This document shows, in pieces, positions 2,345 through 57,288 of a stretch of DNA of 64,000 nucleotides. Source of the stretch: Dokdonella immobilis (lineage in GTDB: Bacteria; Pseudomonadota; Gammaproteobacteria; Xanthomonadales; Rhodanobacteraceae); assembly GCF_900115085.1 (NCBI RefSeq), contig NZ_FOVF01000005.1:163132-227131 (forward strand), given 5' to 3'. Positions within the stretch are counted from its first letter, which is position 1, and each line of letters opens with the position of its first letter. Made by a program: the position numbers and the translations under genes. Under the pieces are notes generated by a model that was given only the letters and a program-made list of their open reading frames with translations, made no database searches and was not told the origin of the DNA.

Positions 2345-3739
<1,395 letters not shown>

Positions 3740-3912
3740 GCGGGCCCCACGAGACTATTGAGGGCCTCTGATCGTTCCGGGGCGCAAATTCGGCCCGATT
3801 CTTGCTAGAGGCCGGTGCGCCAGCGTGGCCTATGGCACATGCCGGAATTCTTCAGACAGCACAGCGTTGCAGAAATGATTTCCCGAAATGGATGGATAGT
3901 GGAGTGATTCAG

Positions 3913-4767
3913 ATGAACAAGCGTTTTCTCCTGCTGATGGCGTTGCTCGCCAGCAGCGCCTTTGCGCAGCAGAACACCGACATCAGTGCGGAGCAGTTCA
4001 CCAGTGGCGATGCCAATGGGACATTGTCGGCTCTCGGTCGCCAGGCGGCCGCCTCCGGCAAGCGGCTGGTCGTGACGGCACCGCAGCACTGGCACGCGCA
4101 GATTGCCGCGAAGATCCGTGCCGGCGGTAACGCCGATGTCGTCCTCAAGGACGGCTTCTACGAGACCGTCCTCGTGCGCATCGAGGACAAGGCCGCTGAA
4201 CCGGCCAGGCCTGAACCGAAGCCCGAGGCGACAGTCAAGGCGGAGCCCAAGCCCGCGCCGCCACCGGCACGCGCCAATACCCAGCCGGCCCCGCCACCGC
4301 CACCGCGTGTAACCGAAGCGCCTGCTCCGGCACCGGTAGTCGAGCGCGCGCCGCAGACGCCGCCACCGGCAGCCGCTCCGGCGGCATCACCGCCGCCCGC
4401 GCCCGTCGAAGCCGCTCCCGAGGCTGCACCGATTCCCGCGGCAGCCGCCACCGAAGCACCCGCAGCAACCGTGGACCCATCGGCGCCGGTCATGCTTCAG
4501 GCAGCGGAACCGGGCGACACCGATCCGGTCCGTTCGACCCTCGAGAAGCGCTACAACGAAGGCAAGCGGATCACCGAGCTGCTCGAGACCTCGGCGTTGC
4601 GGCGCGGCGACCTGATCTACACGGCCAAGGGTGCGGCCGTCGTGGTTCGGCGCGAAGGCAGCCGGCTCCTGCGTTTCTGGCTGGTCGGCGCGCTCAATCT
4701 CAACCAGATCGGCATCGGCAGCGATGGCGTCAACAAGTACAAGGTATTGAGCGGCAAGCTCGAGTGA
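3913..4767 (+). CDS. Exported Pro/Ala-rich protein of unknown function
   Basis: A 284-residue protein with a clear signal peptide (MNKRFLLLMALLASSAFAQ, cleavage after AFA) and therefore likely periplasmic. A short N-terminal domain (about 20-95) is followed by a very long Pro/Ala/Glu-rich linker (about 97-190) and a compact C-terminal domain (about 195-284) rich in charged residues. The linker may span the periplasm or peptidoglycan, but no SPOR, LysM or OmpA motif is visible. The ATG at 3913 was chosen because it starts the signal peptide; an upstream in-frame start at 3802 would bury it. The gene ends before a strong bidirectional terminator. I do not recognise the family. Confidence 0.75.
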   Translation: MNKRFLLLMALLASSAFAQQNTDISAEQFTSGDANGTLSALGRQAAASGKRLVVTAPQHWHAQIAAKIRAGGNADVVLKDGFYETVLVRIEDKAAEPARPEPKPEATVKAEPKPAPPPARANTQPAPPPPPRVTEAPAPAPVVERAPQTPPPAAAPAASPPPAPVEAAPEAAPIPAAAATEAPAATVDPSAPVMLQAAEPGDTDPVRSTLEKRYNEGKRITELLETSALRRGDLIYTAKGAAVVVRREGSRLLRFWLVGALNLNQIGIGSDGVNKYKVLSGKLE

Positions 4768-4843
4768 TTGCCGGTCCGGGCGAGCCGTTCGCCCGGACCG
4801 ACGCACGTTCGGTCCACTGGCCGAACGAAGCCTGGAAAGCGAA

Positions 4844-4877
4844 GGGCCCGACGCTGGTGACAGCGTCGGGCCCTTTC
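4844..4877. terminator. Bidirectional rho-independent terminator
   Basis: A perfect 13-bp stem (GGGCCCGACGCTG / CAGCGTCGGGCCC) with a GTGA loop sits between convergent genes. It is followed by TTTC on the plus side and preceded by GAAAGCGAA on the other, so it could stop transcripts from both sides. Confidence 0.85.
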
Positions 4878-4887
4878 GTCATGCGTC

Positions 4888-5859
4888 TCAGCTGGAAGTT
4901 TCGATGCGTGAGCGGCGCAGCCAGATTGCCGCAACGATCAGCGCCGTGCCGACGATCGCGCCGACCCAGACCCCCGGCGTAGCCAGCAGTCCATAGACGT
5001 GGGACGGGCTGAATACCTCGAGCATGTCGTCCCCGCGGAACACATTGCGGGTGAGGCGGAACTTCTCGCCGCCGTCCTCGAGCCACCAGCCCGGCATGAT
5101 GCCGAACAGCAGCCGCGAGATGACGTCCTTGTAGAGGAACTCCTTGCTCAGGTGCGGCAGGCCCATCAGGCCGATCCAGCTGTTGGCGATGAACGCGAAC
5201 AGGGGGACCAGCACCGCCCACAGGAACGGTTTGCTGCGAGCATAGGCCGACCAGAACAACAGCCATCCGACGGTCGGCAGGGCGACCAGGGCATCCACCG
5301 GCAGGGTCAGCAGGAACCGCCAGAACAGTCCGAGCGTGTGCGAAGCGCCGATCGCAGGGAGCGGATTGATGCCGTGCAGCAGGGCCCAGATCCCGACGAT
5401 GACCAGCAATACGATGTAGGCAAGCGTGGCGATGGCCATCGAGATCAATGGGGCCAGCAATACCGCGGCGGCTACCTTCGACAGCACCGTCGAGGTATCG
5501 GAGACCGGCAGCGACTTCCAGAACAGCACGCTGCGGTCGCGGCGGTCGTCGTACAGGGCGCCGAGCAGGTAGAAGAACACGACAAAGAAGAACACCACGC
5601 AGAGCAGGCCCGCCAGCGCGACATAGGCAACGTCGAGGCCCGTACCCGCATGCACGAAGTCGCCGCTGCTCATGCGCTCGGAAATCTCGCGCCAGGGAAT
5701 CCCGCCATTGACCTCGATTCGGGAAGCCGCGCTTTCGGCGACGACGATGCCGAGCAGGGTCAGCAGCAGCATGACCCCGCTGACCCAGATCGGCGCCCAG
5801 TAGAAGCCGCCCTTGTGCTCCCAGTACTCGCGTTTGACCAGCCATCCAAACGTGTTCAT
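4888..5859 (-). CDS. ABC-2 type transporter permease
   Basis: A 323-residue polytopic inner-membrane protein, last gene of the GntR-controlled operon. Hydrophobic segments lie near residues 27-45, 80-105, 130-165, 180-205, 215-235 and 290-312, matching the six-helix ABC-2 permease pattern. The N-terminal MNTFGWLVKREYWEHKG is typical of permeases encoded beside GntR/YtrA regulators. It begins inside the stop of the ATPase gene (ATGA overlap at 5856-5859). It presumably forms an exporter with that ATPase. The substrate is unknown; related operons have been tied to cell-envelope stress or antibiotic response. Confidence 0.85.
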   Translation of the reverse strand: MNTFGWLVKREYWEHKGGFYWAPIWVSGVMLLLTLLGIVVAESAASRIEVNGGIPWREISERMSSGDFVHAGTGLDVAYVALAGLLCVVFFFVVFFYLLGALYDDRRDRSVLFWKSLPVSDTSTVLSKVAAAVLLAPLISMAIATLAYIVLLVIVGIWALLHGINPLPAIGASHTLGLFWRFLLTLPVDALVALPTVGWLLFWSAYARSKPFLWAVLVPLFAFIANSWIGLMGLPHLSKEFLYKDVISRLLFGIMPGWWLEDGGEKFRLTRNVFRGDDMLEVFSPSHVYGLLATPGVWVGAIVGTALIVAAIWLRRSRIETSS

Positions 5860-7540: not shown

Positions 7541-7764
7541 GGGATTCGGGATTGGGGATTCGGGATTCGGAACGACCAGCGGCGCGCCCGAACCTGACGG
7601 CGGCGCAAATCCGGTTGGCCTTGCGCCCCTCGCAGGAAGTTTCGGTTTGGATTTCCGTTGCGGATTGCCGGGCGCCTATGGCTTGATGGTCCCGAATCCC
7701 GAATCCCGAATCCCGAATCCCGAATCCCGAATCCCGAATCCCGAATCCCGAATCCCGAATCCCG
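7541..7764. repeat. Inverted heptad-repeat arrays (GGGATTC / CCCGAAT)
   Basis: Bases 7541-7570 hold about four GGGATT-type heptads. Bases 7691-7760 hold ten perfect tandem copies of CCCGAAT followed by CCCG. The arms are complementary and enclose about 120 bp of unremarkable sequence, so a long hairpin is possible. The right array runs directly into the ribosome-binding site of the glutathione peroxidase gene. Confidence 0.9.
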
Positions 7765-14812: not shown

Positions 14813-15021
14813 ATTCGCTCGAGGAGCGCCTGACCGAGCTCGAAGTGCGGCTCGCCTTCATCGATGACGCGGTGGCCGCACTGAATGCGGCCGTGGCCAT
14901 GCAGGACCAGTCGATGCTCGGCATGCGCGACGCGATCGACCGCCTGCGCAGCGACCTGCTTGGGCTGCGCTCGACGCTCGGCAACGACGTCAGCAACGAG
15001 CCGCCTCCCCCTCACTACTGA
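14809..15021 (+). CDS. slyX: SlyX family protein
   Basis: A 70-residue coiled-coil protein of unknown biochemical role. Recognisable features are the N-terminal [19 protein letters not shown] heptads and the C-terminal PPPPHY tail typical of SlyX. It starts inside the gmd stop codon, so translation is probably coupled, and the DUF2058 gene follows 16 bp later. Confidence 0.88.
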
Positions 15022-15037
15022 GTCCCAGCCTACCGAC

Positions 15038-15607
15038 ATGGCCGATTCACTCCGAGATCTACTGCTGAAAAGCGGACTGGTACAGAAGCTCAAGGCGGAA
15101 GCACGCGAGGTGCGCCCGGTCGAGCGCCCGCAGTGGCCGGCCAAGGCCAAGCCGCGTCCGGATCGCAAGCGCGTTCCGAACAAGGGCGCAGAGACGCGCA
15201 GCCAGGAGGAAATCGATCTCGCCCGCGCCTATGGTCTTCGCGAGCGTGCGGAACGCGAACAGCGCGAGCGGGAAAAGAGGGAGGCGGAGCGGCGCGCGAA
15301 GGAAAAGGCCGAGCGCAAGCAGAAGCTGGCCGCGCTGTTCGACGGCAAGGCCCTCAACAAGGAGGACGCCGAGATCGCCCGGCACTTCCCGCACGGCGAA
15401 AAGATCCGTCGCGTCTACTGTACGGCCGAGCAACTGGTCGAGGTCAATGCCGGCAGGATTGCCGTCGTGCAGTATCGCGGTCGCTATCTCTTGGTGGATC
15501 GGGAGGTCGCCGAACAGGCCCGCGCCATCAGTTCGGAATCGCTGGTGCTGCTGTGCGATCCGGATGCTCCGGCGGACGACGACATCCCGGACGATTTGAT
15601 CTGGTAG
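15038..15607 (+). CDS. DUF2058 (YaiL-like) nucleoprotein/polynucleotide-associated protein
   Basis: A 189-residue protein of the DUF2058 family, whose function is unknown. The N-terminal MADSLRDLLLKSGLV and a basic Lys/Arg-rich coiled region (about 20-100) are typical. The C-terminal domain contains HFPHGEKIRRVYCTAEQLVEVNAG-like sequence and ends DDIPDDLIW. The ATG at 15038 was chosen because it begins the conserved MADSLRDLLLK; upstream frame extension overlaps slyX. It probably belongs to the gmd-slyX transcript. Confidence 0.88.
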   Translation: MADSLRDLLLKSGLVQKLKAEAREVRPVERPQWPAKAKPRPDRKRVPNKGAETRSQEEIDLARAYGLRERAEREQREREKREAERRAKEKAERKQKLAALFDGKALNKEDAEIARHFPHGEKIRRVYCTAEQLVEVNAGRIAVVQYRGRYLLVDREVAEQARAISSESLVLLCDPDAPADDDIPDDLIW

Positions 15608-15822
15608 TGACGGGACAATGGGAGAAGTGGTCGCTCCATTCCAGCAGTGGCTCGAACTCGGAACCGGCGAATCGATCCTGTCGACCGTGATGCGGGCAGG
15701 TGGAGCCACAGACCCGAGTTTTTCGCGGTAAGATTTTCGGGGCTGCCAATGGGTACCCCGTGACCCAGCGAGTTCGTCGAACACGCGCGGCGGCTTGCCG
15801 AACGACAGGAGATGATCGATCC

Positions 15823-16953
15823 ATGGACCGCCGCTCAATCCGACCCCCACGCTTGAGCATGATCCTATTCCTGGCCGCCACAGCGATCGTGTGTGCCATG
15901 GAACCTGCATTCCCGGCGTCGTCGAACTGGCATCCTGTCGCCAGCATGCAAGTCCAGCGCAGCCATCACACGGCCACGCTGCTGTTGTCAGGAAAGGTGC
16001 TCGTCGTCAGTCATTACGAAGGGGAGGTGTATGACCCCTCGTCGAATACGTGGGCCGTCGCGTCGGGCCTTTCGGTTCCCCGCTTCGATCACACGGCAAC
16101 GCGTCTTGCTTCCGGCAAGGTCTTGATTGCCGGAGGCTACGCCACGACCGTCGGGTTCTTGAAGAGCGCAGTGATTTTCGACCCGGCCGACAACTCGTGG
16201 AGCGACGCCGCGGACATGTCGAATGCGCGGACCGATTTTTCGTCGGTGTTGCTGCCTTCCGGCAAAGTACTCGTCGTGGGCGGGCGTAATGGCGCCGGCT
16301 ATGTTGCCGAGGCTGAGATCTACGATCCAGCGCTTGATACCTGGAGCCCGGCGGGGAGCCTTGCGCACGAAAGGGTATACGCGACGGCGACGCTTACCGG
16401 CACGGGTCAAGTGATGGTGACCGGCGGCGCCCATTTCACGATCCACCTCGCGAGTACAGAACTCTACGACCCGAGCAGTGGACTCTGGACCGAAGTAGGG
16501 GATCTGCATACCGGCCGCTACTGGCAGACCGCAACCCTGATGCCATCCGGATCCATCCTGGTCAGCGGCGGTCAGATCGACACGCCGGAGTATTCAACGA
16601 GCACCGAGATCTTCGACGCCGGCACCGGAACCTGGAGCCCGGGATCCAGCATGGCCTACGGGCGTGGAATCCACGCAGCCAGTGTGCTCGATAACGGGAA
16701 GGTGCTCGTTTCCGGCGGATACTCCTGGAACGGACAGGATGTGGTTGCCGCGACGGAACTCTACGATGAAGTCCGCAACGAGTGGAGCCATGCGGGCATG
16801 TTGGCGGCTGGGCGCGTTTTCCATACCTCCACGGTGCTCGACTCGGGCGATGTCCTCGTCGTCGGTGGGATCGGGCCGTCCGGATCTCCGCTGGAAACCG
16901 CCGAACTGTACGACTGGGATGGTGAAGCCATCTTCAGCGGCGGATTCGATTGA
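15823..16953 (+). CDS. Secreted kelch-repeat protein with C-terminal IFSGGFD tag
   Basis: A 376-residue protein with an N-terminal signal (about residues 13-36, ending FPASS). Six or so kelch/galactose-oxidase blades follow, each with a GKVLVxGG strand and an xELYDPxxxTW turn, predicting a beta-propeller. The C-terminus is Ala-Ile-Phe-Ser-Gly-Gly-Phe-Asp; similar short IFxxGF(E/D) tails occur on secreted proteins of related bacteria as I recall them. The start at 15823 has AGGAG eleven bases upstream. It is the last chromosomal gene before the integrated element. No catalytic residues are recognised. Confidence 0.8.
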   Translation: MDRRSIRPPRLSMILFLAATAIVCAMEPAFPASSNWHPVASMQVQRSHHTATLLLSGKVLVVSHYEGEVYDPSSNTWAVASGLSVPRFDHTATRLASGKVLIAGGYATTVGFLKSAVIFDPADNSWSDAADMSNARTDFSSVLLPSGKVLVVGGRNGAGYVAEAEIYDPALDTWSPAGSLAHERVYATATLTGTGQVMVTGGAHFTIHLASTELYDPSSGLWTEVGDLHTGRYWQTATLMPSGSILVSGGQIDTPEYSTSTEIFDAGTGTWSPGSSMAYGRGIHAASVLDNGKVLVSGGYSWNGQDVVAATELYDEVRNEWSHAGMLAAGRVFHTSTVLDSGDVLVVGGIGPSGSPLETAELYDWDGEAIFSGGFD

Positions 16954-17062
16954 GTCGACCGAATTGCGGGAGTTGTGTGCGGCACCAGGCGTGCATGCAA
17001 GTGAACGGCATTCGCGACGGGAAGGCATTCGTCTACGAAGCCCGAGGCTCGGAAGCCCCGCT

Positions 17063-17080
17063 TCAGAAATCCATGAAGTA
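17063..17080. repeat. attL: 18-bp direct repeat
   Basis: TCAGAAATCCATGAAGTA, identical to 22730-22747. Read on the minus strand it is a displaced copy of the last codons and stop of the phaB-type gene at the other end of the element. Confidence 0.9.
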
Positions 17081-17252
17081 TCTGACTTGCGGTCTGATCA
17101 GATCTAGCCAAAGCCAGCGAATCGAACTTTGCCCCCTGATATAGCCGGGTTTCCAGCCTAGTTTCGTCTATTGCTGTCCAATGCAATCAGGCGGACAATG
17201 GGTAGCCAGAAGGGTAGTCAAGTCGATCAGCTACCCATTTTGGTGGCGACCG

Positions 17253-18482
17253 ATGGCGAAGCGGCAAACCAAGATCCTTTCTGATCCCCAGATTCGCGCG
17301 TGGGTCGCTGATGGTGATCCGGTGGCAAAGAGCGATGGCGACGGGCTGACGTTCACCTTGTCCGCCGCAGGTCTTGCGGTCTGGGTGCTCCGCTACCGGA
17401 TTGGCGGACGCCGTCGGGAATTGACCCTTGGGCGATACCCGGACTTGACCCTGAAAGCGGCGCGCGCCCGCGCTGCGGTGGAACGCATTAAGGTTTCGGA
17501 TGGCGTAGACGTTGCTGCTGAGAAGCGGAGGGCGAAACACGCCAGCGTGGAAGCATGGACAGTCCGCCAACTGATCCAAGACTACGAATCCAAGAATCTG
17601 GCGAATGCTGCGACGTCCACGCGGAAACTCTACAGGGGCTATATCGCCAATTGGGTAGCGCCAAGACTCGGGGCCATGTTGGTTCGTGACGTTGCGCCCG
17701 CTGATGTCGTTGTAGTGCTTCGGGAATCCTCCACACGAGGGGCGGGAGCCATGCGCACGACCCATGCAGCTACGCGCGCATTGTTCGAGCACGCACGTGG
17801 GCAGGCGATTCGCATTGACAATCCGGCGGCAAACATCAATCGCGACACAATCGCGCCAGCGCCACCGCGAAGAAAGGGACTGTCGTTTGAAGGTGAGAGT
17901 TTGGCCGCGTTCGTCCGGGCTATCCCTGATGACGTGAAGGGCTGGGCATTGCGCCTGCACCTGATGACCGGTGTCCGACCGGGCGAGCTATGCGGAGCCG
18001 CATGGCGCGAGTTTGACGAAACCGCGGGGACATGGACGCTTCCGGCAGAGCGCACCAAGACCGGCAGCGAATACACGATCAGCCTGCCCGCTCAGGCTTG
18101 GGAATTGTTGCGAAGGATTCGGGACAATACGCAACAATCGGCGTTTGTGTTTCCGGCCGCGCGCGGTAGTGATCGCCCAATTCCCTATCAGACCTATCGG
18201 GCATGGCTCTGGCGCGTTATGGATGCGCTCGAAATACCACGCAAGACATTCAAGCCGCATGACCTGCGCCGAACAATGCGCGGCGGCCTTGCCTTACTTG
18301 GCGTGCGTTTTGAGGTTGCAGAACGCGCGATCAATCACAAGCTGCCCGGTATGGCTGAAATATACGATCGCAACGACTATGCGAAGGAGAGGAAAGCCGC
18401 GCTGGCGCAATGGGCGGACTATCTGGACTCTCTGCGAACGAGGGCGAATGTGGTGCCAATCAAGAAAGAGGCGGCAAGCTAG
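17253..18482 (+). CDS. int: Tyrosine recombinase / integrase (DUF4102 type)
   Basis: A 409-residue site-specific recombinase that would integrate and excise the element. An N-terminal DUF4102-like arm-binding domain (about 1-95, with LGRYPDLTLKAARARA) precedes a core-binding domain (about 105-195) and the catalytic domain. Catalytic residues are visible: Arg242 in TGVRPGELCGA, His336 and Arg339 in HDLRRT, and Tyr371 in AEIYDRNDY. ATG 17253 gives MAKRQTKILSD, a usual integrase start, although the ribosome-binding site is weak. It lies 170 bp inside attL, the usual position. Confidence 0.94.
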   Translation: MAKRQTKILSDPQIRAWVADGDPVAKSDGDGLTFTLSAAGLAVWVLRYRIGGRRRELTLGRYPDLTLKAARARAAVERIKVSDGVDVAAEKRRAKHASVEAWTVRQLIQDYESKNLANAATSTRKLYRGYIANWVAPRLGAMLVRDVAPADVVVVLRESSTRGAGAMRTTHAATRALFEHARGQAIRIDNPAANINRDTIAPAPPRRKGLSFEGESLAAFVRAIPDDVKGWALRLHLMTGVRPGELCGAAWREFDETAGTWTLPAERTKTGSEYTISLPAQAWELLRRIRDNTQQSAFVFPAARGSDRPIPYQTYRAWLWRVMDALEIPRKTFKPHDLRRTMRGGLALLGVRFEVAERAINHKLPGMAEIYDRNDYAKERKAALAQWADYLDSLRTRANVVPIKKEAAS

Positions 18483-18681
18483 ACGGGATCAAAGCGGGTT
18501 GGACTTGATTGTTCACAAGTGCGCCCTTAGACTATGTTTCGAGCGCCCCCCTTGAAAGAGGCATGGGCGCGCGCATCGGAAACCATGCGATGCGGTCCGA
18601 CGTTCACGTTCTACCCTGCGAAAGCGGCAAGGGAACCATAGGCGTCCTAGCTCAGGGCTGCAAAGCATCAAGCGACGAAGC

Positions 18682-18754
18682 GCAACGGAGCGGATATTTG
18701 ATCCGCATTTGTTGCCACGGCTCGCTTGATGTATTTCCCAAATACCAGCGAGCC
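18682..18754. promoter_or_regulatory. Two stem-loops just upstream of the AlpA-like gene
   Basis: First structure, 18682-18715: GCAAC/GTTGC outside GCGGAT/ATCCGC. Second, 18719-18754: GGCTCGCT/AGCGAGCC (8 bp) outside TATTT/AAATA with a CCC loop. The second ends 17 bp before the AlpA ATG. They sit in the 289-bp gap after int, which otherwise holds no gene. Operator, replication or leader-RNA roles are all possible. Confidence 0.6.
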
Positions 18755-18771
18755 ATGTCGGAGTTCCCGCC

Positions 18772-19002
18772 ATGGATTCGAGTGTTCCTGAGTATGGCTT
18801 TCTGCGGCTAAAGCAGATTATCGGCAACGCCGATGCACGCATTGACCCAATCATTCCAGTTTCTGCCGCTACATGGTGGGCTGGCTGTGCCAGTGGTAGA
18901 TATCCCAAGCCGATAAAACATGGTGGCATCACACTTTGGCGTGCGTCTGACATTCGAGACTTGTGCGATCGAATTGCCAGCAACAAAGGGGCGCAGCTAT
19001 GA
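18772..19002 (+). CDS. AlpA-like DNA-binding regulator / excisionase
   Basis: A 76-residue winged-helix MerR-like protein of the phage AlpA family. Sequence features are the N-terminal FLRLKQIIG, PVSAATWWAGCASGRYPKP (helix-turn-helix and wing), and ITLWRASDIRDLCDRI. Family members activate integrase or excision genes, or act as directionality factors. The start is supported by GGAG upstream. It follows int and overlaps the next gene by ATGA, forming the first gene of the replication operon. Confidence 0.85.
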   Translation: MDSSVPEYGFLRLKQIIGNADARIDPIIPVSAATWWAGCASGRYPKPIKHGGITLWRASDIRDLCDRIASNKGAQL

Positions 19003-19640
19003 GCGTCCAAAAGCAAGAACGAAGCCCGGCGGCAACCGGGCTTCGAGGTGGCACGAGCAGCAATTTACACGTTCAGAATGCCAGCCCCGACGCTCTGTTG
19101 CAACGCCTGGACCGCGTGCAACAGTCCAGCGAAACCCATTGGCGCTCTGCGTGTCCGTCATGTGGCGGGCAGTCTCGGAAACTGAGCATTACGTTTCGCG
19201 ATGGCAAGGTTCTAGTCCACTGCTTTTCCTGCCACGACGCCGAGGGCGTGCTAGCCGCTGTCGGGTTGTCGTGGTCCGACCTGATGCCACCGAGGGCATG
19301 GCCCCAGAGCGCGGAAGAGCGGAGGGCCGCACGCCGAGCCGTTCGCGAGCACGCATGGTCCTGCGCCATTGAGATTGTCTGCGTCGAGGCAGTCATTGTG
19401 CATTTGGTGGCCCTGCAGATTGCAGCCGGCGAACCGCTGAGTGTCGAGGATTCCGACCGTTTTGCGCTGGCGTGTTCTCGGATTGACGCGGCTGCTCTGA
19501 TCCTTTCGGGCCGGGACACATGGAAGCCGGACTACTGCTTCAAACCGGATCGCCTGATTGAAATCAAGCGTGGAGCCGTGGCCGCTATCCGGCGCCAATT
19601 GGAAGGCGCAGAGCATGAGCTTGCGGAGGTGTCCGCATGA
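18999..19640 (+). CDS. CHC2-type zinc-ribbon (primase-like) protein
   Basis: A 213-residue protein with a zinc-ribbon near the N-terminus: CPSC (52-55) and CFSC (75-78) with His74, the arrangement seen in primase CHC2 domains. No TOPRIM or archaeal primase domain is visible after it. The remaining 130 residues are helical and charged. It may therefore be a primase-derived DNA-recognition protein rather than a full primase. It overlaps alpA by ATGA at its start and the RepA-like gene by ATGA at its end, so the three are likely made together for element replication. Confidence 0.7.
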   Translation: MSVQKQERSPAATGLRGGTSSNLHVQNASPDALLQRLDRVQQSSETHWRSACPSCGGQSRKLSITFRDGKVLVHCFSCHDAEGVLAAVGLSWSDLMPPRAWPQSAEERRAARRAVREHAWSCAIEIVCVEAVIVHLVALQIAAGEPLSVEDSDRFALACSRIDAAALILSGRDTWKPDYCFKPDRLIEIKRGAVAAIRRQLEGAEHELAEVSA

Positions 19641-20647
19641 GTAGGCTGGAACAACGCGCATTTGAGGCAACGGAGCAGCCATCCAAGCGGGAGGGGCGCC
19701 CCGTTGTCGCAGTCGGAGCACATGACCTGCTAGCGGCTGACTTTCCCCCGCGTGACATGCTGTTGTCGCCGTGGCTGCTGTCGCAATCGCTGGCGATGAT
19801 TCACGCATGGCGCGGCATCGGGAAAACGCACCTGGCCATGCTCATCGCGTACGCACTCGGAAGTGGCGGACAGTGCCTTTCGTGGTCCGCACCCGCGCCC
19901 GTTCCGACCCTGTATATCGACGGAGAAATGCCCGGCGCTGCACTCCGCGACCGACTGGCCCGGATCGTCGAAATATCGGAAGAGGAACCGCCGGAGGGAT
20001 TCTTGCGGTTTGTGACCCCGGACCTACAGCCGGACGGCATCATGCCGGACCTTTCGACCTATGAAGGGCAGAACGCCATCGAGCGGGTACTAGGTGACGC
20101 GAAAGTGATCGTGGTCGACAACCTGTCTTGCTTGGCGCGCACCGGAAAGGAAAACGAGGGTGATAGCTGGCAGCCGGTTGCGGAATGGGCGCTGCGGATG
20201 AGGGCGACGGGTAGAACCGTGATCTTCATCCATCACAGCGGTAAGGGTGGAACGCAACGCGGCACGAGCAAGCGTGAAGACCTGCTAGACGTCGTCATGC
20301 TCTTGAAGCGGCCCGCCGACTACAACCCCACGCAAGGGGCACGGTTCGAGATTCACTTCGAGAAGGCCCGGAGCCTGTACGGGCAAGAAGTGAAGCCTAT
20401 CGAGGCCACGCTTGAGACTCTGCCGAACGGAAGGCAGACATGGGCCATGCATGAGGTGTCCGACGTCGCGGACGCCGCCATGATTGAGCTGGCAGAGCTT
20501 GGATTGCCGCACGCTGAAATTGCCCGCGAGCTTGGCTGTCACCGTTCCACGGTACTACGGGCATTGCGCAAGGCAGAACAAGAGGGTCGGTTCTCGCCGA
20601 AGAAGAAGCCCAAGCGGAAGGAGCGAGACCGCTATGGCGACGACTGA
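19637..20647 (+). CDS. RepA-like AAA ATPase (replicative helicase family) with C-terminal HTH
   Basis: A 336-residue P-loop ATPase of the RepA/AAA_25 group, hexameric helicases known from RSF1010-type plasmids. Walker A is AWRGIGKTHLA (about 57-67). Walker B is KVIVVDNLS near residue 155, and an FIHHSGKGG sensor-like motif and GTSKREDLLDVVM block follow. The C-terminus adds a helix-turn-helix (HAEIARELGCHRSTVLRAL) and a Lys-rich tail, which may bind the iteron cluster encoded just downstream. The ATGA overlap with the zinc-ribbon gene supports a joint replication role. Confidence 0.82.
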   Translation: MSRLEQRAFEATEQPSKREGRPVVAVGAHDLLAADFPPRDMLLSPWLLSQSLAMIHAWRGIGKTHLAMLIAYALGSGGQCLSWSAPAPVPTLYIDGEMPGAALRDRLARIVEISEEEPPEGFLRFVTPDLQPDGIMPDLSTYEGQNAIERVLGDAKVIVVDNLSCLARTGKENEGDSWQPVAEWALRMRATGRTVIFIHHSGKGGTQRGTSKREDLLDVVMLLKRPADYNPTQGARFEIHFEKARSLYGQEVKPIEATLETLPNGRQTWAMHEVSDVADAAMIELAELGLPHAEIARELGCHRSTVLRALRKAEQEGRFSPKKKPKRKERDRYGDD

Positions 20648-21383
20648 GCGGACCAGCCTGCACGAGTTGTTGCGCGTTGCATTCCCCAGTGTGCGCAACA
20701 CGCAACAAATGACCAAAAACCGTGCAACAGCACGCGCAACAGGCACGCAACAGACAAGCCTAAAGGTGTTGGCGTTGCTGGCTTTAGGCCGCACCAACAC
20801 GCGCAACAAGAGCGCAGCCGAGGGAGGGAAACCCGCGCAACAAACACCCGTTTTCGACCCTGCCTTTGTTGCGCAAGAATCCGACGTTCGAGGCCGATTG
20901 ATCCGCATTGCCGAGGCCGATCTGTTCAACGTGGCCTTGCTTGATTCTCAGGAAGCCGATGATCTGGCGTTGCTGGCCAACCTGGACGACAACGGCCTGC
21001 GTGGATTCCTGCAATGCATACACGACGACAGCCTGCGCGTGCATGGCCATTGTTTACCCGACGATACAGCGCGCGCCTTGTGCCGATCCTGCGGCCCAGT
21101 CTGGATTGGTCCCGAAGTTGCCGCGCTTGCACCAATAATTGAAGGATGGCCGCGTGTATTGGGTTGTCCGTGGTGTCACGTAAAGAACCGCCAAGCGATG
21201 CGACGGCCTGCGATCAATTGCGGGGACTGTCGACACTTCATACCGGACCCCGTCAATCCCGGCGCGGGCATGGGTCGCTGCGGGATTGATCGCGAGCCGA
21301 AAGAATCGGAGCCGATGCATTACCCGGATGCGCAACGAGAGTGCGAGAAATTCAATCCAAAGGGCGTAAGGCCATGTCAGTAG
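20634..21383 (+). CDS. Cys-rich protein of unknown function spanning a candidate origin
   Basis: A 249-residue protein starting at an ATG with AAGGAG upstream, overlapping the end of the RepA-like gene by 14 bp. The first 75 residues are low-complexity (many Gln-Gln, Thr and Arg) because the DNA carries repeated CGCAACA motifs. The rest contains CRSC, CPWC and CGDC knuckles plus further Cys, suggesting zinc binding, and a conserved-looking INCGDCRHF...GMGRC block. Similar proteins accompany replication genes on mobile elements. No enzyme motif is recognised. Confidence 0.65.
   Translation: MATTERTSLHELLRVAFPSVRNTQQMTKNRATARATGTQQTSLKVLALLALGRTNTRNKSAAEGGKPAQQTPVFDPAFVAQESDVRGRLIRIAEADLFNVALLDSQEADDLALLANLDDNGLRGFLQCIHDDSLRVHGHCLPDDTARALCRSCGPVWIGPEVAALAPIIEGWPRVLGCPWCHVKNRQAMRRPAINCGDCRHFIPDPVNPGAGMGRCGIDREPKESEPMHYPDAQRECEKFNPKGVRPCQ
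20668..20872. repeat. Iteron-like GCAACA cluster, candidate replication origin
   Basis: Seven direct GCAACA motifs start at 20695, 20702, 20724, 20736, 20747, 20803 and 20837; six are preceded by C. Two inverted TGTTGCG copies flank them at 20668 and 20867. The cluster lies immediately downstream of the RepA-like gene. Density over 205 bp is far above chance, and the encoded peptide is low-complexity there. Confidence 0.65.
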
Positions 21384-21790
21384 GTGGAAAGCGAGAAGGG
21401 GCAGGACGCAAGCCCGGCTCTGTGAACAAGATCAGCAAGCGCGCAAGGGAAGCAGCGGCCAAAACTGGCGAACTGCCGCATGAGTTCCTTTTGCGGATCG
21501 CGCGCGGTGAAAAGATAGGTGAGCATGAGCCAACCTTTCAGGAGCGCGTTGATGCAGCCAAAGCAGCGGCTCCCTACTACGCAGCGAGGCTTGGCGCTGT
21601 CGATGTCAACGCCAAGGTGCGCACGGCTGCTAGATCGTTGCGCGAACTTTCAGACGAAGAGCTGATCCATCTCGCGGCAGGTGGCTCACTGGACGAAATA
21701 GGCCTTGGCAACGGTTCCATGCCCATCGCGGCTTTGCCTCCACCAGCATTTCAAATCCACCCGATTCGATCGATGCGGGATGATGAATGA
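21374..21790 (+). CDS. GAGRKPG protein, possibly small-terminase-like
   Basis: A 138-residue protein beginning MSVGGKREGAGRKPGSVN, a motif common at the start of small phage and satellite DNA-packaging or DNA-binding proteins. The middle has LPHEFLLRIARGE and RVDAAKAAAPYYAARLGAV, matching a widespread prophage/satellite protein type. Start at 21374 overlaps the previous gene by 10 bp. A terminase small-subunit role would fit a satellite that redirects helper packaging, but no large subunit is present. Confidence in the gene is high, in the role low. Confidence 0.7.
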   Translation: MSVGGKREGAGRKPGSVNKISKRAREAAAKTGELPHEFLLRIARGEKIGEHEPTFQERVDAAKAAAPYYAARLGAVDVNAKVRTAARSLRELSDEELIHLAAGGSLDEIGLGNGSMPIAALPPPAFQIHPIRSMRDDE

Positions 21791-21842
21791 AAATCAGAGA
21801 TTCAGCCGGAGAGAATTGACGCGTGTAAATTGATTGAAATTG

Positions 21843-22547
21843 CTAGTCGCTTTTCATACGAAGTTCAACGAGCCGGTACACCTCCGGATCCCAATATGCC
21901 CCGAGGTTCCTACTCTTTGACAGAAGCTCCCAAACGACTGCCCAACTGAGAGTCCACGATCCGACGGATGCATAGGCAGTAAGCATGGATTGAAGCGTTT
22001 TAGCTGCGCGATACCGCTGTCGCCACTTGAGTCCCTGCACTACAACCGCCAATGCTATGGCGCTTCCAGCAAGCCAAGAAGAATTGAATGCCAATGCTGC
22101 GAATAAGATCGCAACAAAGATCAGCCATTTCAGGGCGCGCCATATCCAGCGAAGTGCGATTAACCATCTCTTCTCTGGGCTGCTCGCCATGCTTCCGATC
22201 GGGTTGAGAACGGCGGCATACGCGGAAATTTCTGCATACATCAGGACGTTGACGATCAGCCAGTCGAATTCGCGTCGATGAATTCCTCTCAAATGCTCAA
22301 TGTAGTGCGCGGCTGAGCTTCGCAGTGAATCGCGGTGGTATTCAACTGAGTACAGAGATTCAGGCTCACGTGATGGGTGAAAGTGTCTCCACCCGTCTAA
22401 CGGTTCCCCGTTTCGCCGTATCGAGGAATAAAAACTATTCAGGAATTCCTGACTCTCATCTCGTAACGAGAGATTCTCAGCCGTATCGTCGTCGGAGATC
22501 TGGCTGCGGATGATTCGATTTGCCTGCTCCCAAGAAAGGCTATCCAT
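21843..22547 (-). CDS. Two-TM protein of unknown function, element cargo
   Basis: A 234-residue protein on the opposite strand to the rest of the element, at its distal end, and markedly AT-rich. The N-terminal half is polar and helical. Two adjacent hydrophobic segments follow (about residues 137-156 and 157-172), then a basic helical region (KWRQRYRAAKTLQSML) and a C-terminal helix ending VYRLVELRMKSD. ATG 22547 is preferred; a TTG twelve bases upstream is possible. Distal reverse-strand cargo in satellites is often anti-phage defence, and the two-TM plus helical tail recalls SLATT-type effectors. That comparison is inference only. Confidence 0.6.
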   Translation of the reverse strand: MDSLSWEQANRIIRSQISDDDTAENLSLRDESQEFLNSFYSSIRRNGEPLDGWRHFHPSREPESLYSVEYHRDSLRSSAAHYIEHLRGIHRREFDWLIVNVLMYAEISAYAAVLNPIGSMASSPEKRWLIALRWIWRALKWLIFVAILFAALAFNSSWLAGSAIALAVVVQGLKWRQRYRAAKTLQSMLTAYASVGSWTLSWAVVWELLSKSRNLGAYWDPEVYRLVELRMKSD

Positions 22548-22729
22548 AAGGCCGTCCAAGACGCGAGTGTGTGATGACTAGCAGAGCATCATCGGCCGGG
22601 CTAATCAATCGCAGTCGACTGTACGATGCGACAGGCGAGGAATATTGGTAGCTATCCGGGTAGCTATGCTGAAAACGCAGGAGGATTGAAAGATAAAAAT
22701 GTTTGAAAACAATATGATAAGTCTATCCG

Positions 22730-22747
22730 TCAGAAATCCATGAAGTA
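22730..22747. repeat. attR: 18-bp direct repeat inside the phaB-type gene
   Basis: TCAGAAATCCATGAAGTA, identical to 17063-17080. On the minus strand it encodes the last residues Tyr-Phe-Met-Asp-Phe and the stop of the reductase, so integration leaves the gene intact. Confidence 0.9.
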
Positions 22748-23485
22748 GCCGCCATTCACCGGAATGTTGGCGCCGGTTATGAAGCCGGAATCCTCGTTGC
22801 AGAGGAACTCGACGACGCGGGCGATCTCGGCCGGTCGGCCGAGTCGGCCGACCGGAATCCTCGAAACGATGTCGTTGCGCACGGTCTCGGGTACGGCCAT
22901 GACCAGCGCGGTTTCGCAGTAGCCCGGCGAGACGCTGTTGACGGTCACGCCCTTGCTCGCGACTTCCCGGGCCAGGGCCATGGTGAATCCGTGCATGCCG
23001 GCCTTGGCCGCCGAGTAGTTGGTCTGGCCGAATTGTCCGGTCTGGCCGTTCACCGAGGAAATGTTGACGATGCGGCCGAAGCCGCGCCCGGTCATGCCGT
23101 CGATGAGTGCACGGCAGGTGTTGAAAACGCCGTCCAGATTGACCGTGATCACGTCCGACCATTGTTGCTCGGACATCTTGCGCAGGCTCGTGTCGCGGGT
23201 AATGCCGGCCGCATTGACCAGGATCGACACCGGTCCATGCCGGGACTGGATGTCGGCCAGGGTCGCCCCGCTGCTGGCATGATCGGAAACATCGAGCGGT
23301 TCGAACACGATGGCGTCGGAGAATTCGGCGACCTCGGCCCGGAAGGCATCGATCCGCTCGGCGCGCGCAGCGAGGTCGGCGGCGATGACGCGCTTGCCGG
23401 CGCGGGCCAGATGGCGACAGATTTCGGTTCCGAGGCCGCCGATACCACCGGTTACGAGGGCCACATGCGGGTTGCTTTCGGACAT
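22730..23485 (-). CDS. phaB: Acetoacetyl-CoA reductase paralogue (PhaB type), attachment target
   Basis: A 251-residue short-chain dehydrogenase that would reduce acetoacetyl-CoA to (R)-3-hydroxybutyryl-CoA with NADPH for PHA synthesis. It has VTGGIGGLGTEICR (cofactor loop), NAAGITRDTSL, ISSVNGQTGQFGQTNYSAAK (catalytic Ser, Tyr, Lys) and GANIPVNGGYFMDF at the end. ATG 23485 is preferred by alignment with the second phaB at 24273-25013, though an in-frame ATG at 23518 exists. The element's right attachment site covers its 3' end. It lies downstream of phaR. Confidence 0.88.
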   Translation of the reverse strand: MSESNPHVALVTGGIGGLGTEICRHLARAGKRVIAADLAARAERIDAFRAEVAEFSDAIVFEPLDVSDHASSGATLADIQSRHGPVSILVNAAGITRDTSLRKMSEQQWSDVITVNLDGVFNTCRALIDGMTGRGFGRIVNISSVNGQTGQFGQTNYSAAKAGMHGFTMALAREVASKGVTVNSVSPGYCETALVMAVPETVRNDIVSRIPVGRLGRPAEIARVVEFLCNEDSGFITGANIPVNGGYFMDF

Positions 23486-23588
23486 GGTCGGCAATGCATC
23501 CTGTCGATTCGGACGCAACGGTCACGGCTGCCGATCGTGCTGGCAGTTCGTCTGTGGGTCCGGGGGGAGGGATTTGCTGCGGGAGCTC

Positions 23589-24086
23589 TCAGGTCTTGCT
23601 GTCTTTCTTCGGCTTGGCCGGTGCCGCGCCCTGGCGAGCCTTGGCGACCGCATCGGTGAGGAATCCCTGCTGCACCGATTTCCACGCATCCATATTGCGT
23701 TCGGTCATGTCGTTGAGCATCGACCACGGGGTGCGTCCCATGATGTTGTTCAACTGGCTGCGGAACTGTTGCTGCTGGTCGAGGAAGACCTGCAGGCTCT
23801 TCTCGAGGTAGCTGCCCATGAACCCCTGCAGCGAGTCGCCGTAAAAACGGATGATCTGCGAAAGCAGTTGGGTGGTGAACATCGGCTGGCCGCGATCCTC
23901 GTGCTCGGAGATGATCTGCAGCAGCACGGAGCGGGTCAGGTCCTCGCCGGATTTGGCGTCGCGGACCTCGAACTGTTCACCATCGACGACCAGCTGCCGA
24001 ACCTCTTCGAGCGTGATATAGCTCGAAATCTCGGTATCGTAGAGTCGACGGTTCGGATACTTCTTGATGATGCGGGATTCGGCCAT
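23589..24086 (-). CDS. phaR: PHA synthesis repressor PhaR
   Basis: A 165-residue regulator of polyhydroxyalkanoate storage that binds both PHA granules and DNA, repressing phasin genes and itself. The N-terminal PHB_acc_N domain is clear: RIIKKYPNRRLYDTEISSYITLEEVRQLV. The PHB_acc helical region (QPMFTTQLLSQIIRFYG) and a Lys/Ala tail follow. It lies between the two phaB-type genes on the same strand. A perfect palindrome 41 bp upstream is a possible operator. Confidence 0.95.
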   Translation of the reverse strand: MAESRIIKKYPNRRLYDTEISSYITLEEVRQLVVDGEQFEVRDAKSGEDLTRSVLLQIISEHEDRGQPMFTTQLLSQIIRFYGDSLQGFMGSYLEKSLQVFLDQQQQFRSQLNNIMGRTPWSMLNDMTERNMDAWKSVQQGFLTDAVAKARQGAAPAKPKKDSKT

Positions 24087-24126
24087 CCAGCAACGCTAAC
24101 AGATCGTGTCGTGCCGCACCAGTTTT

Positions 24127-24140
24127 ATGCTGCGCAGCAT
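24127..24140. promoter_or_regulatory. Palindrome upstream of phaR, possible PhaR operator
   Basis: ATGCTGCGCAGCAT is a perfect 14-bp palindrome 41 bp before the phaR start. PhaR proteins are reported to bind TGC-rich palindromes (CTGC...GCAG). Here the half-sites abut with no spacer, so the match is incomplete. Confidence 0.4.
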
Positions 24141-24192
24141 CGAAACCGCGGTTCCAGGCCCGGGTCAGGGGCCCCCAGACGCCCCTGTCAGG

Positions 24193-24213
24193 GAGCCGGA
24201 GCGGGTCCGGCTC
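24193..24213 (-). terminator. GC-rich stem-loop after phaB
   Basis: GAGCCGGA / TCCGGCTC, a perfect 8-bp stem with a 5-base loop, 60 bp past the stop of the minus-strand phaB gene. There is no clear T-run, so terminator function is uncertain. Confidence 0.4.
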
Positions 24214-24272
24214 AATCCGTCGAATTGCTGCAGTACGGTGGAAGCAGGGTTCCTTCCACCGTCCGCAGCCCC

Positions 24273-25013
24273 TTACCAGCCCATGTAGTGGCCGCCATTG
24301 ATGGACAGGTTGGCACCGGTGATCCAGGAGGCCTGTTCGGCGGTCAGGAAGCCGACCGCGTAGGCGATTTCCTCGGGCTCGCCGAGCCGGCCGACCGGGA
24401 TCTGGGCGGCGATCTTGGCGCGCACGTCCTCGGGCACGGCGCGGACCATTTCGGTCAGCACATAGCCCGGGGAAACCGTATTGACCGTGATGCCGAATTT
24501 CGCGTTTTCCTGGGCCAGGGAGATGGTGAAGCCGTGCATGCCGGCCTTGGAGGCGGCGTAGTTGGCCTGGCCGTATTGCCCTTTCTGGCCGTTGATCGAA
24601 CTGATCTGGACGATGCGTCCCCACTTGCGCGCGCGCATGCCGTCGATGACCGGGCGGGTCACGTTGAAGCAGGAATTGAGGTTGGTGTTGATCACTTCCT
24701 GCCACTGCAGTGCCGACATCTTGTGGAAGGTGGTGTCGCGGGTGATACCGGCGTTGTTGATCAGGATGTCGATCGGACCGAGCTGACTCTCTATTTCACG
24801 GACCATGGCCTCCGACGAGGCGACATCGGACACGTCGCCGGCAGCCAGGGCAAACTCGAAGCCGTCGGCCTTCTGTGCGGCCTGCCAGGCCTTGGCCTTG
24901 CCCTCGTCGCGGTAATTGGTGGCGACCCGGTGCCCCGCTTGCGCGAGATGTCGGCAGATGGCCGTGCCGATGCCGCCGATGCCTCCTGTTACCAGCGCTA
25001 CTCGTGCCGTCAT
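24273..25013 (-). CDS. phaB: Acetoacetyl-CoA reductase
   Basis: A 246-residue SDR reductase of PHA synthesis. Motifs are VTGGIGGIGTAICR, INNAGITRDTTFHKM, ISSINGQKGQYGQANYAASK with the Ser-Tyr-Lys triad, and a GANLSINGGHYMGW C-terminus, the classical PhaB ending. The start at 25013 is backed by GAGAGGAG seven bases upstream. phaR and a second phaB-type gene follow on the same strand. No phaA or phaC lies in the window, so the pathway is completed elsewhere. Confidence 0.95.
   Translation of the reverse strand: MTARVALVTGGIGGIGTAICRHLAQAGHRVATNYRDEGKAKAWQAAQKADGFEFALAAGDVSDVASSEAMVREIESQLGPIDILINNAGITRDTTFHKMSALQWQEVINTNLNSCFNVTRPVIDGMRARKWGRIVQISSINGQKGQYGQANYAASKAGMHGFTISLAQENAKFGITVNTVSPGYVLTEMVRAVPEDVRAKIAAQIPVGRLGEPEEIAYAVGFLTAEQASWITGANLSINGGHYMGW

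Positions 25014-57203: not shown

Positions 57204-57288
<85 letters not shown>

Follow-up and report, generated by a model that had tools for sequence, protein, structure and literature searches.

The prototype of the phage-inducible chromosomal minimalist islands (PICMIs) of Vibrionaceae has six genes within about 6-7 kb, with an int-alpA-primase core and no capsid-remodelling genes (PMC10803314), and in the helper-embedded phage-inducible chromosomal islands (HE-PICIs) the attP site carries a doubled motif at 81 +/- 2 and 132 +/- 2 bp (PMC10111431). As for integration sites in general, the TIGER database places 56.6% of islands in tRNA/tmRNA genes or in intergenic DNA, and many in protein-coding genes (PMC12884075). 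Here we describe an element in a 64-kb stretch of the Dokdonella immobilis genome (64,000 nucleotides of contig NZ_FOVF01000005.1, referred to as the window). We confirm that an integrated element occupies the 3' end of a gene for acetoacetyl-CoA reductase (phaB type). It was likely inserted by its own tyrosine integrase and probably spreads in the manner of small phage satellites such as PICIs and PICMIs, a lifestyle proposed from its gene content.

The element and its attachment site

The element is bounded by an 18-bp direct repeat, TCAGAAATCCATGAAGTA, which is perfect in the window (Table 1), and spans 5,667 bp, counted between the first bases of the two copies. On the minus strand the right copy reads TAC TTC ATG GAT TTC TGA (Y F M D F stop), and forms the end of the reductase gene. 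The reductase scores 333 bits against TIGR01829 (cut-off 302.1), but falls short of the stricter PhaB model NF042966 (176 vs 436 bits); neighbouring genes are phaR and a second TIGR01829 gene. Both the perfect repeat around an integrase-led cassette and the restoration of the target gene by the right copy had been claimed in a first-pass annotation of this DNA, and both are borne out. A genome search found the element once in the host, and its G+C content is 0.578 compared with 0.642 in the left and 0.655 in the right flank. The only tRNA gene in the window, tRNA-Leu at 57204, provides no target for the element; an Rfam scan of 15000-24500 gave no match, and a promoter scan returned fewer matches than in shuffles and is hence uninformative.

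By itself the repeat is weak evidence, because repeated 18-mers are not unique in the window: there are 35 exact ones, and 13 among the 20 listed stem from two short tandem arrays. Arrays of 7-base tandem repeats lie in two places, one spanning 7690-7764 and the other running from 57123 up to 57162 or beyond. The case for an element is made by the position of the repeat on a gene end, together with the empty sites in relatives and the arm motifs described below.

A phaB-like match was present in 31 of 40 genomes, the window's own included, and for the comparison we took stretches of the 16 relatives, out of 30, whose homologues were closest. Each of these carries a single match to the 18-mer, with 0-4 mismatches, at the end of phaB; L035 has one further, unrelated 4-mismatch match elsewhere. 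None of the 16 stretches, the lengths of which differ, contains an integrase match at E <= 1e-4. Contig L034 extends just 112 bases past phaB, and its continuation L076 opens with the same 127 bases. In the nearest relative (G006, L031), the DNA is 86-93% identical (about 90%) to the window up to 15607 and again from 22726, while window positions 15608-22725 are missing, i.e., the island plus 1.45 kb with a kelch gene outside the repeat. The comparison of phaB genes with and without the insertion that the first-pass annotation had proposed gives 16 empty sites, each with one 18-mer at the gene end, and one occupied site in another genome (G442, see below), and a collinear genome about 90% identical lacks the island.

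The occupied site was found in record PLNP01000047.1, from the same family as the window (G442; G403 is the same genome by coordinates). One contig has an integrase 76% identical to that of the window, with an imperfect 18-mer and a DUF2058 gene next to it. A phaB gene that ends in an 18-mer lies on another, 6.9 kb from the end of that contig; the two 18-mers differ at three positions. From their matching ends, we infer that both contigs belong to one island. On its contig the integrase precedes phage-defence genes of the BREX type, PglW, BrxC/PglY, PglZ, BrxD and BrxHI (PADLOC, six proteins submitted). The list looks like that of a type 2 BREX system; no PglX methylase was seen, so the system may be incomplete. 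Encoded on the phaB-side contig are a terminase small subunit (Terminase_2), an ATPase of the IstB/DnaA type and a helix-turn-helix protein, along with a membrane protein that resembles MARVEL below the cut-off. Across the family, the 18-mer pattern matched in 124 of 197 genomes, four of which have two matches: the window's own; G003, where two contig ends overlap and show a single site twice; G101, in which the copies are on different contigs; and G319, in which they lie about 2.2 Mb apart. A doubled 18-mer was rejected as a marker of occupied sites, since the pattern misses attL of G442 (2 mismatches) and therefore undercounts.

A chance repeat around ancestral chromosomal genes would be in keeping with the other repeated 18-mers in the window; given that 16 of 16 compared relatives lack such an integrase at the site, that arm motifs lie at both ends and that the same site is occupied in G442, we consider this explanation barely credible.

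Because the G006 alignment skips both, the window holds two extra pieces, the element and the 1.45-kb kelch piece. The latter contains a gene for a kelch-repeat protein (15700-16953, from Pfam) between DUF2058 and attL, just outside the left repeat; a third copy of the 18-mer, with up to 4 mismatches allowed, was not found beside this gene. In G006 the DUF2058 gene (PF09831) follows directly after phaB, and it lies at most 70 bases from the phaB end in L031, L033, L034/L076, L035 and L043. In L039 and L040 the distance is 3-4 kb, and in L041 about 2 kb; the gene was not found in the stretches of the other eight of the 16 relatives. Previous insertions at the same spot are possible. Similarly, about 750 extra bases separate DUF2058 from attL in G442.

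Table 1. Features of the element and its target gene, by window position, and of the defence genes in G442
Feature	Position	Strand	Basis or remark
attL, outer copy of the 18-bp repeat	17063..17080	none	repeat search and sites in relatives
Left doubled motif GGTAG-N7-GGTAG, probable integrase arm site	17201..17217	+	137.5 bp from repeat centre
Tyrosine integrase, 409 aa, Arm-DNA-bind_3 and Phage_integrase	17253..18482	+	Pfam
AlpA-like small protein	18772..19002	+	39-46% identical to homologues in L077, L078
Zinc-ribbon, primase-N-terminus-like protein	19002..19640	+	phrog_6088 3.7e-6
RepA-like ATPase (AAA_25), C-terminal helix-turn-helix	19637..20647	+	PF13481 4.9e-22; RepA 1g8y 1.6e-8
ORF5, Cys-rich, conserved in related elements; first 80 codons contain iterons	20634..21383	+	homologue comparison
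Iteron-like array (GCAACA seven times, TGTTGC twice), probable replication origin	20668..20872	none	repeat count
ORF6, phrog_15261 family (uncharacterised phage family)	21374..21790	+	2.3e-15
ORF7, cargo, helical, probably membrane protein (by eye)	21843..22559	-	region G+C 0.50
Right doubled motif GGTAG-N7-GGTAG	22647..22663	+	83.5 bp from repeat centre
attR, inner repeat copy, formed by the final five phaB codons and the stop	22730..22747	none	repeat search and sites in relatives
Target gene, acetoacetyl-CoA reductase (phaB type), frame intact	22730..23518	-	TIGR01829
BREX genes of G442	L051 12032-16240; L068 1421-11128		PADLOC

The integrase, its targets and its arm sites

With the arm and catalytic domains of the integrase, the att repeats, the restored target and the empty sites, the locus has the features of a tyrosine-integrase island. 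Arm-DNA-bind_3 is a domain that we take to be of the DUF4102 type. Residues R242, K269, H336, R339, H362 and Y371 are invariant in four homologues, and presumably make up the active site. Related integrases were gathered from 398 genomes of the order (E <= 1e-80), a contig search and 197 genomes of the family (E <= 1e-70), which gave 11 distinct proteins, counting that of the window. Every one of them lies next to the 3' end of a protein gene: phaB in two (window and G442), DUF6165 in six and yicC in three. The DUF6165 target was checked with Pfam in two (L060, L096) and assigned in the other four by the same gene-end residues; for yicC, one (L099) was checked with Pfam and two share the same gene-end DNA. 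The integrase of L096 (G419) looks broken, with two overlapping frames and a separate N-terminal part. A metabolic gene had been regarded as an unusual target in the first-pass annotation, and this view has to be revised.

The integrase group sorts by target gene on a tree of 17 sequences (the 11 and six from five loci with related replication genes), where a fully supported branch (100/100) splits protein-gene targets from tRNA/tmRNA targets. The four target groups need three changes, the lowest number possible; shuffled labels average 8.9 and never give as few (0/200). Long-branch warnings apply to L079 and to the place where the yicC and RNA-gene groups meet, and the tree is rooted only at its midpoint. 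The pattern suggests that one integrase group has changed protein-gene targets with the arm layout kept. Among the viral contigs searched no relative of the integrase was found, and in 363 phage records with an integrase of this type the best identity is 36.5%.

The motif GGTAG-N7-GGTAG occurs exactly twice in the window, once inside each end and in the same orientation, and no such pair appeared in 100 shuffles; as the motif was read off the ends before counting, this shuffle test is after the fact. An inverted further copy, AGCTACCCAT, follows the left doubled motif at about 17229. An independent check is provided by G442, where the arm pair is present at both ends with spacing to the core identical to that in the window. 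Furthermore, a pair spaced by 12 bp lies upstream of the integrase in all 11 cases (GGTAG in eight, GTACC in the three at yicC) and at the far end too in 8 of 11. Both element ends were located at 8 of the 11 loci, with no right end found at L093, L094 and L096. Repeats measure 18 bp in the window, 18 bp (imperfect) in G442, 19 bp in L060, 13 bp in L061 and 19 bp in L095. At the three yicC loci they comprise 7-8 bp and are weak singly; such words also match by chance, as do a longer, unrelated 9-mer in L098 and another 7-mer in L097. AGGTGC is trusted as the repeat of the yicC group because it is found in all three at equal distances.

We predict that the integrase binds the doubled arms, spaced by 12 bp, which flank the core at 83.5 and 137.5 bp, and that it recombines attP with the 3' end of phaB; attP would carry the replacement codons, so that phaB stays whole. 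A decayed and now immobile remnant of a larger prophage or island is improbable in our judgement. The short element, the deviating G+C content of the ORF7 region and the apparently far larger G442 element at the same site, the extent of which is inferred across two contigs, would agree with decay; against it, the element retains its two att copies, its two arm pairs and an uninterrupted integrase, and elements of 5.2-8.6 kb with both ends are seen in related genomes.

Replication cassette, cargo and mode of transfer

The first-pass annotation had listed genes of replication type, and the support for the int, alpA, zinc-ribbon, RepA-like, iteron and cargo assignments varies in strength. No Pfam match was obtained for the AlpA-like ORF itself (E <= 5), and thus none to PF05930 or PF12728, which define AlpA in PICMIs; its homologue in L078, 39% identical, matches PF05930 at 2.4e-8. 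For the zinc-ribbon protein, a homologue in L077 has a weak Zn_ribbon_DnaG match (0.0042, below cut-off). Strong inverted repeats lie before alpA (18719-18755) and at the start of the zinc-ribbon gene (19020-19045). The hairpin before alpA was considered as an immunity RNA and dropped (z -2.6 in the window vs -0.6 to -1.3 in five homologous stretches). The iteron array is most likely in coding sequence, because it spans the first 80 codons of ORF5, the start of which is partly conserved in three homologues. Hexamer arrays at the RepA/ORF5 junction recur in six of seven elements, window included (0-2 of 500 first-order Markov shuffles), with GCGCAA/GCAACA in the window, GTTGCA/GCAACA in L081 and GCACCA in L077-L080; L082 has no hexamer excess at this junction (134 of 500 shuffles).

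Homologues of the RepA-like protein (54-62% identity) occur in six other genomes among the 398 of the order, accompanied by the zinc-ribbon gene in five, ORF5 in four and alpA in two. The suggestion that the gene set recurs as a unit therefore applies to these parts, and not to ORF6 and ORF7. Five of the six carry quite different integrases (27-31% identical); four of these have sites at tRNA-Phe, tRNA-Ser, tRNA-Cys and tRNA-Leu (repeats of 21, 14, 19 and 17 bp, respectively), and the fifth adjoins tmRNA, with no repeat found there. L081 has no integrase match. Since the same RepA-like cassette occurs with different integrases, it seems that the two modules, integrase and replication genes, are swapped independently of each other. 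RepA relatives are also found in four viral contigs and an ORF5 relative in one, where the integrases are at most distant (22-24%). In L080, two integrase genes stand back to back (2425-5432), one near tRNA-Leu and the other of the tRNA-Cys repeat pair. A tail tape-measure gene (phrog_24) is found in two cassette relatives (L079 13825-16497, L080 13553-16327), with 12-13 kb between the repeats; no other structural gene was noticed in these partly scanned islands.

ORF6 had been read as terminase-like, and this is rejected: the best small-terminase match has E 0.08, compared with 2.3e-15 for phrog_15261. The cargo assignment of ORF7 is upheld. A search of 5.8 billion proteins returned three relatives, and the AlphaFold model is of fair quality (pLDDT 86) with no fold match in the PDB at E <= 0.001; a known defence function was rejected, PADLOC giving no match. 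No capsid, tail, portal or relaxase family and no Mob protein was recognised among the matches listed for the seven ORFs (Pfam, PHROGs and NCBIfam; for the RepA-like protein, the best 25 of 30 PHROGs matches), in agreement with the absence of capsid and transfer genes noted at first pass. The host genome (G000) contains two HK97-type capsid genes, on contigs C43 and C71, and hence phage-derived regions, which are possible helper prophages.

Mobilizable genomic islands (MGIs) move in trans through an origin of transfer (oriT) mimicking that of a conjugative element, with no relaxase of their own, and the same integrase could serve an island of this sort or an integrative and mobilizable element (IME); we regard this as unlikely, though less so than decay. 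IMEs with a tyrosine integrase insert at 3' ends, those of tRNA genes as well as those of housekeeping protein genes such as yicC (PMC5704250); integrases related to that of the window also abut yicC, and RepA is a plasmid-type helicase. On the other hand, no relaxase or Mob protein was recognised among the matches listed for the seven ORFs, in an analysis that did not cover oriT, the order of AlpA and primase-like genes matches phage satellites, and two cassette relatives have the tape-measure gene. For a phage satellite, which we favour, the AlpA-like protein would likely act as excisionase or switch upon infection by a helper phage, by analogy with the work on PICMIs and PICIs. The circle would be replicated by the RepA-like helicase and its zinc-ribbon partner from the array inside ORF5, and might be packaged by the helper, with ORF7 as putative cargo.

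Several observations weigh against a satellite of this kind. The element measures 5.7 kb compared with the 12-15 kb of typical PICIs, has no supported terminase small subunit, and no recognisable primase catalytic domain in its zinc-ribbon protein. In the six cassette relatives neither ORF6 nor ORF7 was found, and the integrase itself is rare, with matches at E <= 1e-80 in 3 genomes out of 398 in the order, own included. No similar DNA was found in phage or plasmid collections. A search of the host genome for the large terminase PF03237 gave no match, so that the phage-derived regions there may be partial or use another terminase family. The GGTAG pair is also present at both ends of L082, an element at tRNA-Leu, and L077 has a different 12-bp-spaced pair, so doubled arms also occur outside the group with protein-gene targets; L078-L080 have no such pair upstream of the integrase. 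Finally, helper, excision, induction and packaging are all putative.

Comparison with known systems

The locus adds the end of a metabolic gene to the sites used by small integrative elements. In the literature search, no report joined an integrase attachment site with acetoacetyl-CoA reductase, or phaB with genomic-island integration (the TIGER/Islander database, which may list the site, was outside the search); the reports listed on polyhydroxyalkanoate and integrase sites appear to be engineering work, and nothing was found on phage satellites in Xanthomonadales. A wider proposal is that a minimal 5-9 kb satellite family exists in the order to which the Rhodanobacteraceae belong. In it, the attP geometry would be fixed (doubled, 12-bp-spaced arms at about 66-84 and 131-147 bp from the core), the integrase would have switched between phaB, DUF6165 and yicC 3' ends with an arm motif by group (GGTAG or GTACC), the origin would lie inside the ORF5 frame with iterons GCAACA or GCACCA, and the phaB site, also hosting the BREX island, would be a docking site for mobile phage defence. 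Taken jointly, we consider these statements evenly balanced between true and false. If true, the natural series phaB, DUF6165, yicC would make it testable how integrases gain new sites. As compact int/att modules, the islands might serve in storage-polymer-producing bacteria.

Like the yicC/trmE-targeting MGIs and SGI1, the element combines a tyrosine integrase with the 3' end of a protein gene that is restored (PMC5704250). Unlike these, it uses phaB, yicC being used by related integrases, and no relaxase or Mob protein of its own, as expected of an IME, was recognised among the matches listed.

With the Gram-negative PICIs and HE-PICIs it shares a one-directional int, alpA, replication genes and an iteron origin (PMC6092414, PMC10111431), and the modules follow the conserved order, int-alpA-like-zn-RepA-ORF5, all on the plus strand, with no structural or lytic genes among the matches listed. 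The doubled attP motif is found at nearly the same distances, and integrase clades share an attB site (PMC10111431, PMC6092414). The att layout is thus alike, but the letters differ, GGTAG here and TGTATTGC in the HE-PICIs, where the 12-bp period is our own count of the printed motif. Apart from its smaller size, the element differs in its chromosomal housekeeping target with replacement codons, and in the iterons inside a coding gene. PICI att sites are expected never to be used by prophages; two occupied phaB sites were seen here, one of which (G442) comes with a terminase small subunit, an IstB/DnaA-type ATPase and a helix-turn-helix protein and may be a prophage.

The PICMIs resemble the element in small size, in the int-alpA-primase core, in the lack of capsid-remodelling genes and in a site that lies downstream of a protein gene and has a direct repeat (PMC10803314). 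The PICMI site is fis, whereas it is phaB here, and the PICMI primase is of the DUF3987/DUF5906 type, which is absent among the Pfam matches listed for the seven ORFs, whereas the window has a zinc-ribbon protein and a separate RepA-like ATPase. Furthermore, a helper is proven for PICMIs and putative for the present element. Because size departs from the PICIs, and primase and site from the PICMIs, we file the element under neither. By content it is closest to the PICMIs and the Gram-negative PICIs, and most likely it works like them.

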